Source: SAR202 cluster bacterium (GTDB taxonomy: Bacteria > Chloroflexota > Dehalococcoidia > Lucifugimonadales > UBA826). From it: a stretch of DNA of 49,286 bases. The position numbers and the translations under genes are program-made. The stretch covers positions 1 to 49,286 of the forward strand of contig JAKUTY010000013.1 of assembly GCA_022447825.1 (NCBI GenBank), read 5' to 3'. Positions 460 through 34,032 of this stretch are shown here, in pieces (position 1 is the stretch's first letter; the number at the start of each line of letters is the position of its first letter). Below the pieces are notes generated by a model. It searched no databases. It was not told the DNA's origin and saw nothing but the letters and a program-made list of their open reading frames with translations.

Positions 460-483
460 ATTATACAGATTAAAAAACAATAG

Positions 484-505
484 AAGTAGGCAAAAAGTAG
501 GCAAA
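484..505. repeat. two tandem copies of an 11-bp repeat
   Basis: AAGTAGGCAAA occurs twice head to tail (484-494 and 495-505). The repeat lies between the stop of the partial gene and the tRNA-Lys fragment. A further inverted pair, GTCAGT at 578-583 and ACTGAC at 605-610, sits closer to the fragment. Short direct repeats next to a tRNA attachment site resemble arm-type integrase sites. That reading is inference. Confidence 0.45.
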
Positions 506-626
506 AATAATTGAACATAATTGTATGTAATTTGGCGTAATGGTTTTAGGGCAGAGGTTTTGTGCCTAGTAATGTCCGTCAGTTGCAGATAGTTGTACAT
601 AATGACTGACAAAAAACAGGTAGTAT

Positions 627-676
627 AATGACTCTTAATCATTAGGTCGTGGGTTCGAACCCCTCCCGGCTCACCA
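627..676 (+). other. 3' fragment of tRNA-Lys(CUU), probable attachment site of an integrated element
   Basis: The 3' two-thirds of a tRNA is present. It comprises a perfect 5-bp anticodon stem (627-631 with 639-643), a loop with anticodon CTT at 634-636, a 5-nt variable loop, a T arm with loop TTCGAAC at 654-660, a 7-nt acceptor strand (666-672), a discriminator A and an encoded CCA (674-676). The matching 5' acceptor strand (GAGCCGG) and a proper D arm are absent upstream; similarity fades at about 619. Integrases that use tRNA genes leave a truncated 3' copy at the far end of the element. With this orientation the element would lie to the left and the native chromosome to the right. The terminator directly after the CCA supports this. 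Confidence 0.6.
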
Positions 677-703
677 CTAATTTATAGCTAGATTAGTGGT
701 TTT
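674..703 (+). terminator. hairpin terminator overlapping the tRNA CCA
   Basis: A perfect 8-bp stem pairs CCACTAAT (674-681) with ATTAGTGG (692-699) around a 10-nt loop, followed by TTTT at 700-703. The stem starts on the CCA of the tRNA-Lys fragment, as expected for the original terminator of that tRNA gene. The region from 704 to the TTG start at 803 shows only AT-rich leader. Confidence 0.65.
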
Positions 704-802
704 GCTTACATTGTTAATACATTATCTTATTGAAAATTTTTTAATTTTTACCTTTACTTAATTACTGATACTATTTGCAATACACATTACTAGGAGAATA
801 AT

Positions 803-1966
803 TTGTCTAATCTTACTTATTCCAAAATCTCAGAATCTGAAGCTGAACTAACATGGTCAATTGTCGAGCAGGCGCTTCACAGACATGGCGATCCAAATTG
901 GAATAGGAAAGTAGGTTATAAAAATTTCAGGGCTATTAGATCCGATGGGAATATATTAGGTGGTATTGCAATCATAGATATGGGTCAATGGTTTGGCGGC
1001 AGAAAGGTACGCACTGGGGCTGTTACATCAGTGGGAGTTGCTCCAGAAGGTCGTGGTATCGGTGCAGCTTCTACAATGCTTTCAAATGCATTAAAAGAGA
1101 TGAGAGATAACGGTATGGCTATTTCAACCCTTTTTCCATCTAGTGTCAGAGTCTACAGATCCAAAGGATATGAAAGGTCCGGAGTTATGCTTACATATGA
1201 AGCTCCCATAAAAGAAATGAGAGCAGCGCTGAATAAACTTAAAGTTGAACAAGCATCAAACGATGAGGAAATGGTATTACTGTTCAATGAAAGAGCTCAA
1301 CAAGGTAATGGCAATTTGGACAGAGGTAGTTTACTTTGGGATCTAATCACTACAAGTGATGGCAGACCTATTTACAAATATTACATTCGCGATGAAAACC
1401 AAGTAGTTGGATATATTAATTATCAACAGTCTAGATCAGGTGACCACATTAGAATTCGAGATATGGTTTCTTCAACTCAACAGTCATCAGAAAGAATCTT
1501 AAGATTTTTTGCTGACCATAGAACAGTTATAGATACAATTTCTTGGAATGGCCCCCCGACCGACCCTATTGACTTCGCTATGGAGGAACAAGAAACAAAC
1601 CTAAAATCATCTACAGACTGGATGGTAAGAGTTTTAAATATTTCAGATGCTTTAGAACAGAGAGGTTATCCTGCAGGAGTTAATGCTTCAGTAGATTTTG
1701 AATTCAACGACAATGAGATCCCAGAAAATAACGGGATTTGGCATTTAAATATAAATGAGGGTAGGGGATCTGTTAAAAAAGTTACATCACCATCATCAAA
1801 ACAAGTCTTAAAATTAGGACCCCGTGGTTTTGCACCTTTATACACTAGTCATTATTCAGCTACCGATTTAAAAATCATGGGAATTATTGATGGTTCTGCA
1901 GAAACAATCGCGTTGGCAAACACAATATTTGCTGGGCCCAAACCGTGGATAGGTGAACAATTCTAG
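803..1966 (+). CDS. Eis-like GNAT family N-acetyltransferase
   Basis: This 387-residue protein has the Eis architecture: an N-terminal GNAT domain, a second degenerate GNAT-like domain and a C-terminal SCP2-like domain. The acetyl-CoA loop is seen at residues 81-88 (PEGRGIGA). Tyr118, in a V-Y-R-S-K-G-Y motif, aligns with the general-acid Tyr of Eis. The chain ends in Phe, and in mycobacterial Eis the C-terminal Phe carboxylate is the catalytic base. Eis enzymes acetylate amines on aminoglycosides, polyamines or protein lysines; the substrate here is unknown. The start is TTG at 803, chosen because AGGAG lies about 8 nt upstream. The downstream serine hydrolase begins within about 25 bp, so the two are probably co-transcribed. 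No signal peptide is visible. Confidence 0.8.
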   Translation: MSNLTYSKISESEAELTWSIVEQALHRHGDPNWNRKVGYKNFRAIRSDGNILGGIAIIDMGQWFGGRKVRTGAVTSVGVAPEGRGIGAASTMLSNALKEMRDNGMAISTLFPSSVRVYRSKGYERSGVMLTYEAPIKEMRAALNKLKVEQASNDEEMVLLFNERAQQGNGNLDRGSLLWDLITTSDGRPIYKYYIRDENQVVGYINYQQSRSGDHIRIRDMVSSTQQSSERILRFFADHRTVIDTISWNGPPTDPIDFAMEEQETNLKSSTDWMVRVLNISDALEQRGYPAGVNASVDFEFNDNEIPENNGIWHLNINEGRGSVKKVTSPSSKQVLKLGPRGFAPLYTSHYSATDLKIMGIIDGSAETIALANTIFAGPKPWIGEQF

Positions 1967-1988
1967 TATATCTCCAAAGGTGGATCTG

Positions 1989-3191
1989 ATGAGTTATTTT
2001 GGTTTTTCAAAATCTAGACTAAATTTGATTGATGAACATTTACAAAAAAAATATATAGACACGAAAAGATTTGCAGGGACATTGACTGGAGTGTACCGAA
2101 ACGGTGAACTCGGATATATATCAAGTTTAGGCATGATGGATATAGAACAAAACATACCGATGAATCGAGATACAATTTTTCGTATTTATTCTATGACTAA
2201 GCCAATTACATCAGTGGCGTTAATGACTCTTTATGAAAAAGGAATGTTTCAATTAGACGATCCCGTATCAGAATACATTCCATCATTTAAAAATTTAGGA
2301 GTTTATCAACAGGGGCATATGGGTGACTTTATTAGTACTCCTTTAGAAAGAGAAATTACCATTCGAGACTTATTAACTCATCAATCTGGATTAACCTATG
2401 GTCACACGGAAAGAACAAATGTAGATCATGCCTATAGGACTATGGGAATTGATCGAGAATCTCAAGAAAGTCTTGCTACATTTGTTGAGTCATTAAGTAC
2501 AATTCCTATTGAATTTTCTCCGGGAACTGGTTGGAATTATTCAGTTTCTACGGACGTATGTGGTTACTTAATTGAAGTCATTTCAGGTAAAACTCTTGAT
2601 GTGTTTTTCCAAAACGAAATTTTTGACCCTCTTGAGATGTCAGATACAAGTTTTCATGTTCCACCCGAAAAAATCTCTAGATTTGCTTCATGTTATTCAT
2701 ATCAACAATCCAATTCTTTGACTTTGGTGGATGATGCTATTTCAGGAACTTTCATATCTAAACCTAAAGTATTTTCCGGTGGTGGTGGCCTTGTATCTAC
2801 ACTTGATGATTACATTTCTTTTTGTGAAATGATTTTAAATGGCGGATCACTAAATGATCACATGATAATCAGTCGCAAAACTTTAGATCTTATGACTTCA
2901 AATCATTTGACAAATGGTACAGACCTTAGAAGTTGTGCGTATGGTAGATGGAGTGAAACTTCTTATACTGGCGTTGGATTTGGTTTAGGATTTTCAGTTT
3001 TGTTAAATCCCGCAGCATCCCAAGTATCAGGTAATGTTGGAGAATTAGCATGGGGTGGAGCTGCAAGTACAGCTTTTTGGATAGACACTGTAGAGAATTT
3101 AGCAGTACTATTTCTGACTCAATTACGTCCTTCAAGTCAATATAACATAAGAAGAGAATTGCGCACCCTGGTATACGCTGCTATTGATTGA
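1989..3191 (+). CDS. serine hydrolase of the class C beta-lactamase/EstB fold
   Basis: The 400-residue product carries the serine beta-lactamase-like motifs: Ser68-x-x-Lys71 (SMTK), a Tyr184-Ser dyad after N, and a late W-G-G segment in place of KTG. Such proteins are esterases, amidases, D-aminopeptidases or beta-lactamases; the substrate cannot be read from sequence. There is no signal peptide, so a cytoplasmic esterase or amidase is more likely than a cell-wall enzyme. The ATG at 1989 is preferred because AAAGGTGG at 1976-1983 is correctly spaced. A GTG at 1953 would overlap the upstream gene by 14 bp. It probably shares a transcript with the Eis-like gene. A clear paralog sits on the minus strand at 32696-33955. 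Confidence 0.82.
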   Translation: MSYFGFSKSRLNLIDEHLQKKYIDTKRFAGTLTGVYRNGELGYISSLGMMDIEQNIPMNRDTIFRIYSMTKPITSVALMTLYEKGMFQLDDPVSEYIPSFKNLGVYQQGHMGDFISTPLEREITIRDLLTHQSGLTYGHTERTNVDHAYRTMGIDRESQESLATFVESLSTIPIEFSPGTGWNYSVSTDVCGYLIEVISGKTLDVFFQNEIFDPLEMSDTSFHVPPEKISRFASCYSYQQSNSLTLVDDAISGTFISKPKVFSGGGGLVSTLDDYISFCEMILNGGSLNDHMIISRKTLDLMTSNHLTNGTDLRSCAYGRWSETSYTGVGFGLGFSVLLNPAASQVSGNVGELAWGGAASTAFWIDTVENLAVLFLTQLRPSSQYNIRRELRTLVYAAID

Positions 3192-12296: not shown

Positions 12297-12380
12297 GGGG
12301 GAGTGGCGGAATGGTAGACGCGCTAGTCTTAGGAACTAGTGTCGAAAGGCGTGTGGGTTCGAGTCCCTCCTCCCCCACCA
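12297..12380 (+). tRNA. tRNA-Leu(UAG)
   Basis: Complete class II tRNA of 84 nt including an encoded CCA. The acceptor stem pairs 12297-12303 with 12370-12376 perfectly. The anticodon stem is 12323-12327 with 12335-12339, and the anticodon is TAG at 12330-12332, which reads CUA/CUG and probably other CUN codons. A long variable arm follows, then the T arm with loop TTCGAGT. The T stem contains a U-U mismatch at its second pair, identical to the one in the tRNA-Lys fragment at 627-676. Confidence 0.95.
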
Positions 12381-12419: not shown

Positions 12420-12630
12420 GGGTCGTGCTAGGTGGGGAGTTAGCGGTGCCCTGTACTCGCAAACCGCTCTAGCGAGACTGAATTCCTATTAGAGAGCTGA
12501 AACGAAACAACCTCTTTGTAGGTTTAATAATGTTGATAGATAGGTCCTACGCGGCAAAACTCTGTGAACCCCGTCAGGTTCGGAAGAAAGCAGCGGTAAA
12601 CGGTAAGTTTTGGGTGCCGTAGGGTAACTT
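12420..12630 (+). ncRNA. ffs: signal recognition particle RNA, long form with Alu domain
   Basis: The 5' part (from about 12420) contains the conserved bacterial Alu-domain sequence, with GTGCTAGG, GGGGAGTTAGCGGTGCCCTG and CCGCTCTAGC. This closely resembles the Bacillus-type scRNA. The 3' part has the domain IV hairpin GTCAGG...GGAA...AAGCAGC, with the GGAA tetraloop at 12582-12585. Compared with the common sequence, one stem pair has changed from C-G to U-A on both sides, which supports the fold. It binds Ffh to target nascent membrane proteins and, through the Alu domain, probably slows elongation. At about 210 nt it is shorter than the Bacillus RNA. The 3' end is approximate. The remaining 75 bp to rsmA hold nothing else I can name. 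Confidence 0.9.
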
Positions 12631-12705
12631 GTTTTGAGTTGTTAAACTTGTTTATGTTGTCACGACTGAACGAAAATAGGTGCTCGGCCCATAAGCGGAT
12701 ACATT

Positions 12706-32616: not shown

Positions 32617-32693
32617 GGCCCCATCGTCTAGCGGTCCAGGACGCTGGCCTTTCACGCCGGAAATCGCGGGTTCGAATCCCGCTGGGGTCACCA
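32617..32693 (+). tRNA. tRNA-Glu(UUC)
   Basis: Complete 77-nt tRNA with encoded CCA. The acceptor stem pairs 32617-32623 with 32683-32689 and includes one G-U pair. The anticodon loop CTTTCAC contains TTC, flanked by a 5-bp stem with one G-U. The T stem is a perfect GCGGG/CCCGC around TTCGAAT. The convergent serine hydrolase stop lies 2 bp beyond the CCA, so no separate terminator fits between them. Confidence 0.96.
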
Positions 32694-32695
32694 CT

Positions 32696-33955
32696 TCAAT
32701 CTTCGATAGCTGAATAAACTAAAGATTTCAACTCTCTTCGTACATTATAAGAGTCTGATGGTAATAGTTGAGTTAATAAAATTACTATTAAATCCTCAAC
32801 GGGATCGATCCAAAATGTGGTACTTGCCCATCCACCCCAAGATAATTCTCCAACACTTCCTGCAGCTTGAGAAGTCGCTGGATTAATTAATACAGAAAAT
32901 CCCAAACCAAACCCAACACCGCCTTGGTTCCAGTAATATCTCGCATCATTTCCACCAGTAAATCCTCTTTCACGTAAATCGCTATTTGACCACAAAAGTT
33001 GAGAATTTGGATCAGTCTTGTCTATTAAATGATTTTGACTCATTAATTCAATAGTTTTTCTACTTAACAATCGTTTACCTTTATATACCCCTTTATTTAA
33101 TATCATTTGGCAAAAGTGTAAATAGTCATCTAATGTAGAAAGAAGACCAGATCCACCTGACAAAAACTGAGGCGGGGTGGTGAAATTACCATAAATGGGG
33201 TTATCAGTCCTAATTGGAGGTCCAAATGGTTGAAATTCATAATTAGCTGCCAAACGATCAATCTTAGTGTCAGAAACATGAAATGAAGTATCAATCATAT
33301 TTAATGGATCAAAAATTTCATCCAAAAAATATTGATCTAATGACTTACCTGAAAACAACTCAACTAAATACCCGCAAACATCAGTAGCAATTGAATAATT
33401 CCAATGACTGCCAGGTTGAAATTCTAGAGGCAATTCAGTTAACAATTTGATTTTTTCTTGCATAGGGGCATCTGCAAACACCAATCCTAAATCTTGATAA
33501 GCTGCATCAACTTCAGTGATACGGGTTAATCCATAAGTAAAGCCAGCCTGATGTGTCAAAAGATCATGGATTGTCATGCGCCTGACTGTATCTTGAGTAA
33601 CAAAACTGCTTTGATCACCAGAAACATATACTTTTAAATTTTCAAATGACTCTATGTATTTAGATACTGGATCATCTAATTGAAATAAGCCTTTTTCATA
33701 CAATTGCATTAGTGCTACAGATGTAATTGGTTTAGTCATAGAATAAATTCTAAAAATAGTATCTCTACTCATTGGTTTATTTAATTCTTTATCCATAAAA
33801 CCTAATGCAGAAGAATGAACCAACTTACGCTTTCTAAATATTCCAGTTACAAATCCATTAAATTTATTTGTATCAAGATAATTTTCCTGAAGAAATTGGT
33901 CGATGTAGTTTAGTTTGTCTACAGACATTCCACCTATTTGAGTATCTTTAGGCAT
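32696..33955 (-). CDS. serine hydrolase of the class C beta-lactamase/EstB fold, second paralog
   Basis: The 419-residue protein has Ser72-x-x-Lys75 (SMTK), a catalytic-type Tyr187-Ser and a C-terminal W-G-G-W-A-S-T segment. It matches the 1989-3191 protein along its whole length, including the R-D-T-I-F-R-I-Y-S-M-T-K-P-I-T-S-V-A block. The two are therefore duplicates or members of an expanded family. The ATG at 33955 is chosen because AGGAAG precedes it; upstream in-frame codons lack a binding site. There is no signal peptide. Likely an esterase or amidase of unknown substrate. Its 3' end is pressed against tRNA-Glu. Confidence 0.84.
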   Translation of the reverse strand: MPKDTQIGGMSVDKLNYIDQFLQENYLDTNKFNGFVTGIFRKRKLVHSSALGFMDKELNKPMSRDTIFRIYSMTKPITSVALMQLYEKGLFQLDDPVSKYIESFENLKVYVSGDQSSFVTQDTVRRMTIHDLLTHQAGFTYGLTRITEVDAAYQDLGLVFADAPMQEKIKLLTELPLEFQPGSHWNYSIATDVCGYLVELFSGKSLDQYFLDEIFDPLNMIDTSFHVSDTKIDRLAANYEFQPFGPPIRTDNPIYGNFTTPPQFLSGGSGLLSTLDDYLHFCQMILNKGVYKGKRLLSRKTIELMSQNHLIDKTDPNSQLLWSNSDLRERGFTGGNDARYYWNQGGVGFGLGFSVLINPATSQAAGSVGELSWGGWASTTFWIDPVEDLIVILLTQLLPSDSYNVRRELKSLVYSAIED

Positions 33956-34032
33956 AAATAAATTCTTCCTATTAATTATTGTAACTTTCAACGATAATAA
34001 AATTATAGATATTATTCAACACTAATATATTA

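Follow-up and report, generated by a model that had tools for sequence, protein, structure and literature searches.

A truncated tRNA-Lys in a SAR202 genome probably marks the right end of a small integrase-less element

Introduction

How does the 3' half of a tRNA-Lys gene come to stand by itself near the start of a bacterial contig, and what was inserted there? The original prediction for this locus read the fragment as the footprint of a tRNA-targeting integrase, at the right end of an integrated element that would extend to the left. Here, we compare the locus with those of related genomes and argue that the fragment probably bounds a minimal element of a type that carries no integrase of its own.

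Materials and methods

The window is the whole stretch of DNA analysed, 49,286 nt, and comprises the whole of contig C5 from its first base; the features described below between positions 1 and 3191, and the tRNA-Glu gene at 32617-32693, lie on the forward strand. Its genome (G000) amounts to 1.38 Mb in 53 contigs and is 97.9% complete, and related records place the lineage in SAR202, a marine group of the Chloroflexota. The genomes used most in comparison were G002, a SAR202 single-cell genome of the same genus (AG-426-M11, QCNV01000012.1; 78% complete), G001 (same genus), G004 (another genus) and G010 (same bacterial family). The tRNA survey covered stretches of up to 19 kb downstream of tRNAs, shorter at contig ends, for 34 distinct tRNAs in G000, 31 in G002 and 41 in G004.

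Results and discussion

Positions 627-676 of the window are identical over all 50 nt (100%) to positions 27-76 of an intact tRNA-Lys(CTT/CUU) gene in G002, and run from the anticodon arm (anticodon CTT at 634-636) through the variable loop and T arm to the 3' acceptor strand and CCA. This is a far better match than chance would be expected to give: allowing up to three mismatches, there is no other match in G000, where this is the sole copy, and among 250 genomes of the order only two G002 copies were found. ARAGORN and Rfam return no tRNA call at these positions because the 5' part is absent, and neither an intact tRNA-Lys(CTT) nor a second copy of the fragment was found in the G000 assembly. 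The original description of a tRNA-Lys(CUU) 3' fragment lacking its 5' part is thus confirmed by an exact match, with the correction that the 5' side has been replaced by a conserved element end of about 155 nt (472-626, detected with a right-end profile), the inner side of what we read as attR. A terminator-type hairpin and T run follow at 673-704 (12-bp stem at 673-700, then TTTT). The hairpin is real; that it is the original terminator of the tRNA, as had been proposed, is questionable, since hairpins of this kind are absent from an uninterrupted tRNA-Glu site in the window and are supplied by the inserts at the tRNA-Glu of G002. The loop TAGCTACG, or near variants of it, is common to terminator-type hairpins behind several tRNAs, including the window hairpin, L139:11341-11370, L206:1146-1175 and the left ends in L181 and L056.

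The order of features in G002 is an intact tRNA-Lys(CTT/CUU), 1,392 bp of inserted sequence, and then the 50-nt fragment and downstream gene known from the window, with the flank common to both genomes from window position 469 (91.6% nucleotide identity over 4.5 kb). This host flank (705-3191) encodes a GNAT acetyltransferase (803-1966) and a beta-lactamase-family protein (1953-3191), as judged by Pfam and by synteny with G002. An intact upstream tRNA-Lys(CUU) whose 3' half repeats 627-676, as predicted for the window, is therefore found in the sister genome at a distance of 1.39 kb, correctly ordered and oriented and beside the right-hand neighbours seen in the window, which supports the reading of the fragment as a footprint of tRNA-targeting integration. 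Both an intact tRNA at the near end and a duplicated 3' part at the far end are present in G002, whereas the G000 assembly shows the far end only, the left half of the element being absent because the contig starts at window base 1. By sequence resemblance, the genes to the left of the G002 tRNA-Lys are VOC, YajQ-like, cupin and aldo/keto reductase genes, and the latter three have counterparts at the end of contig C22 in G000; this contig breaks off within the YajQ-like gene, about 0.6 kb short of the expected tRNA-Lys. From this synteny, the tRNA and the left part of the G000 element would fall in the assembly gap between C22 and C5.

What lies inside the element differs between the two genomes, and the part in common is the final ~155 nt before the tRNA fragment. 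The cargo visible in the window is an open frame of 152 aa (1-459) with its 5' end cut by the contig edge; this ORF is absent from the G002 tRNA-Lys insert, which carries a gene for a 149-aa predicted lipoprotein and a 114-aa ORF. Because their left neighbours differ in this way, the truncated tRNA copies are not simply a conserved block with identical surroundings, the situation that would have spoken against an integrated element. The 152-aa ORF has no Pfam, PHROG or NCBIfam match above cut-off, and neither 250 genomes of the order nor viral contigs nor phages gave a homologue; a weak PADLOC match to a methyltransferase (E = 0.008) is not believed. The shared ends have diverged about as much as the host flank, and hence vertical inheritance with exchange of cargo is indistinguishable from two separate related insertions. 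No uninterrupted tRNA-Lys site was found.

A second locus supplies the comparison with a relative lacking the insert that had been proposed as a check. The right-end profile matches window 472-619, the G002 tRNA-Lys insert and two inserts at the G002 tRNA-Glu, for a total of four inserts at two tRNAs. The tRNA survey added this tRNA-Glu(TTC) as a single further strong case within the genus; a 3' fragment of it, 50 nt long and 96% identical, lies 1.65 kb downstream of the gene. The insert between them (G002-Glu1) carries a gene for a predicted lipoprotein of 455 aa in which an SNase domain is found. A second left end comes directly behind this insert, then a gene for a predicted membrane protein of 433 aa, and after this a right end and a tRNA-Glu fragment, both decayed, before host sequence resumes. 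The window carries the uninterrupted counterpart of this two-insert site, a tRNA-Glu(UUC) at 32617-32693 (ARAGORN; junction alignment with G002), and sequence downstream of it aligns with that behind the distal G002 fragment. Read from this arrangement, the comparison shows serial insertion in G002 between the tRNA and older inserts, and the junctions at the two loci show integration at both tRNA-Lys and tRNA-Glu. In the stretches searched, G001 had no tRNA 3' fragments. Each of the two tRNA sites of the window is closely followed by a gene of the beta-lactamase family (serine hydrolase-like), at 1953-3191 (PF00144 by Pfam) and 32696-33991 (named by resemblance only).

These observations bear on the simplest explanation of the locus, in which, with mobile elements playing no part, the fragment would be left over from a tandem tRNA-Lys duplication or from gene decay. 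Nothing speaks for this origin beyond the existence of a second, truncated tRNA copy; in G002 the end sequence found here also stands before a tRNA-Glu fragment, the material between the tRNA copies differs between species and the tRNA-Glu site is uninterrupted in the window. We consider such an origin scarcely credible.

The anatomy of the inserts is informative as to how they may move. At the left end, the tRNA 3' half is followed by a hairpin, CGTAGTTTTGACGGACACT and a tandem word of ~11 bp; at the right end, a word pair is followed by about 110 conserved nt finishing in ACTGACAAAAAAC and then by the tRNA 3' half. In a circular junction, the right-end sequence ACTGACAAAAAACAGG would be joined to the left-end sequence CGTAGTTTTGACGGACACT. 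In the window, the right-end pair is AAGTAGGCAAA, present twice at 484-505 as a direct repeat with 11-nt spacing. The word differs from insert to insert, and in three inserts the same pair occurs at both ends: ATGTGTCCAAA in G002-Lys (tandem, element positions 57 and 1249), ACACGGCAAAA in G002-Glu1 (element positions 56 and 1504) and AATGGACTAAA in a tRNA-Trp insert of G004 (positions 88 and 1446), which belongs to another genus and has end sequences of its own. Matched left and right words were not found in the older, decayed G002-Glu2 insert, and no word pair could be recognised in the tRNA-Lys insert of G004. Word pairs behind tRNAs are only mildly enriched in general (14/169, against 3.4% in random stretches), and the argument therefore rests on the pairs matched at both ends. 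When the ends of both genera were searched across genera at the DNA level, matches were found in G000, G002 and G004 only.

The duplicated tRNA sequence generally starts within the anticodon arm, with identity beginning at position 27 for G000/G002-Lys, 28 for tRNA-Glu, 37 for G004-Lys and 27 for G004-Pro; the G004 tRNA-Trp copy is longer, with identity from position 14. Crossover in the anticodon loop is a classic pattern of tyrosine integrases, and arm-type sites typically look like tandem words just inside both ends of an element. We infer that a tyrosine integrase, provided in trans, uses the paired words as its arm-type sites.

Inserts in G004 are also arrayed at tRNA-Trp and tRNA-Lys with conserved ends of their own (L198/L261, L219:17415-17750 and L209:980-1151). 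One G004 right end runs into a hybrid tRNA, Lys-like in its 5' half and Trp in its 3' part. The repeats of the array are also points at which contigs break.

The original prediction also expected a tyrosine recombinase nearby, and this was not borne out. No insert that could be read end to end, those at tRNA-Lys and tRNA-Glu of G002 included, carries an integrase gene, and the full-length integrase matches in G000, G001 and the 78% complete G002 are of the XerC/XerD type only, as judged by their neighbours in G000 and G001. The two in G000, on contigs C45 and C12, were rejected as helpers since their neighbours mark them as chromosomal Xer-type genes, and an apparent G001 integrase on C37/C53 is a xerC-like gene split across two contigs. 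The sole non-Xer trace in G000 is a broken tyrosine integrase with one internal stop (L016:2283-2600) on the 4.4-kb contig C31. In the same family, G010 contig C154 bears an integrase gene with a word pair of the kind described above at its 3' end. No helper integrase was identified among the genomes searched, and an excised form of the element was not seen. IMG/VR held no match to the exact att core or to right-end patterns; its single left-end match (L220) falls within the coding sequence of a gene on a GC-rich contig that is unrelated, and is put down to chance, and phage records gave ordinary tRNA similarity only.

One could instead suppose that the window holds the end of an ordinary, larger tRNA-targeted island or prophage whose own tyrosine integrase lies in the unassembled left part, with the G002 inserts being deletion remnants. 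The left part of the window element is indeed not assembled, a broken integrase sits on a small contig of the same genome, and integrase-bearing islands adjoin tRNA pieces in other genera of the family. Against this, the two Xer-type genes are the only full-length integrases in G000, at 97.9% completeness. In addition, the ends of the G002 inserts are well preserved and bear matched word pairs around one or two genes, at two different tRNAs, an evenness not expected of random deletion. We therefore think a larger island unlikely. Given the lack of an integrase in the inserts, and only Xer-type genes and a broken remnant in G000, movement in trans by a helper is instead the most likely mode, as we infer it, and the window element, despite its unassembled left part, very probably belongs to the minimal integrase-less type.

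The tandem one- or two-gene inserts with common ends and no integrase would also be expected of serine-recombinase or integron-like cassettes, that is, of one-gene modules stacked at tRNAs by a resident non-tyrosine recombinase. A gene with PF07508 and PF13408 does lie near tRNA-Trp in two genera, upstream of the tRNA at L139:7280-8611 (G002) and L261:2003-3031 (G004), with 55.6% amino acid identity between the two. We rejected it as a helper, as the full-length G002 copy has no resolvase domain by Pfam, and it stands behind pyruvate-kinase-like and zinc-ribbon genes; it is possibly a domesticated recombinase. Long blocks of tRNA identity together with paired ~11-bp words fit a tyrosine integrase acting on arm-type sites, and the right end in the window folds no better than shuffled sequence (z = -1.2), with no significant attC-like fold. 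A cassette mechanism of this kind is accordingly very improbable.

Our preferred reading, which we hold to be probable, is that window 472-676 is the attR of an integrase-less element resembling a cis-mobilizable element (CIME), inserted at tRNA-Lys(CUU) and moved in trans by a tyrosine integrase. Site-specific recombination within the anticodon arm would bring a small element into tRNA-Lys(CUU); the tRNA 3' half carried by that element would rebuild the gene at the left, and the host's original 3' half would be pushed to the right end, where it would now form the fragment at 627-676. Such elements would make up a family of minimal, integrase-less units, 1.39 and 1.65 kb where measured (in G002) and carrying one or two genes, for which a helper would supply the tyrosine integrase in trans, acting on the ~11-bp words as arm-type sites.

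Several known systems come close to this picture. CIMEs, as characterised in PMC5704250, keep attL and attR, lack integrase and transfer genes and accumulate with newer elements beside the target gene and older ones pushed outwards. The G002 inserts likewise retain both att sites and carry no integration or transfer genes, while the window insert shows attR only; compared with the CIMEs of that account, the G002 inserts are far smaller, with one or two genes, the SAR202 ends are common to different tRNAs, and no parent ICE or IME was identified. In the same phylum, Dehalococcoides ssrA islands are described as tandem and bounded by repeats of an RNA-gene 3' end, with 15 of 31 lacking an integration module and proposed to be cis-mobilizable (PMC3146451); the SAR202 inserts resemble this integrase-less half in function. 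The Dehalococcoides islands of that description use tmRNA as target, serine recombinases and dehalogenase genes, with vcr islands of about 12 kb, whereas the SAR202 targets are tRNA-Lys and tRNA-Glu, with tRNA-Trp and tRNA-Pro in G004, and not tmRNA.

The original statement that islands in streamlined lineages are little described was too strong, as tRNA cassettes and additive flexible islands are reported for streamlined aquatic bacteria, among them Ca. Actinomarinales (PMC7771536) and Methylophilaceae (PMC10872708); the passages on these islands do not mention conserved ends or matched word pairs. Tycheposons, described in PMC10872708 and PMC11389934 as tRNA-bounded cargo elements of marine bacteria of 4-200 kb with a tyrosine recombinase, differ from the G002 inserts, which at 1.39 and 1.65 kb and with no integrase match them in neither size nor recombinase. 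Integron arrays and CALINs, as presented in PMC11389934, share arrays of one-gene modules that lack an integrase and would be moved in trans; the SAR202 inserts are set apart by their anchoring at tRNAs and by the duplicated tRNA 3' half, and the one end tested shows no significant attC-like fold. Set against these accounts, the general kind is already known from additive islands and the Dehalococcoides ssrA islands, and the common ends with exchangeable paired words look new. Judged by title and abstract, none of the papers found on SAR202 with integrases and mobile elements deals with such inserts.

A broader and more tentative suggestion, which we would regard as possible though doubtful, is that SAR202 bacteria maintain a dispersed cassette system in which modules of one or two genes, free of any integrase and alike at their ends, stand head to tail behind several tRNAs, and in which the paired ~11-bp word serves as an exchangeable address that chooses the helper integrase. 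More generally, movement of such minimal elements would account for some of the gene turnover in a marine lineage that is abundant and for the most part uncultured, with single genes, several of them for predicted lipoproteins, being added beside tRNAs with no resident integrase. The matched words, set in otherwise common ends, offer a handle for finding helper integrases and for testing the movement of minimal elements.

With respect to cargo, a PROSITE-like lipobox pattern occurs in four of six insert-associated ORFs, compared with 63 of 1,118 ORFs (5.6%) in the same genomes, a post hoc comparison on a small sample in which one of the four, at the G002 tRNA-Trp, lies behind a word pair with no distal tRNA fragment and is only a candidate member. 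Other G004 inserts carry SnoaL-like and oxidoreductase genes. Elsewhere in the window, a tRNA-Leu(UAG) at 12297-12380 is followed after 43 nt by a large-type bacterial SRP RNA at 12423-12687.
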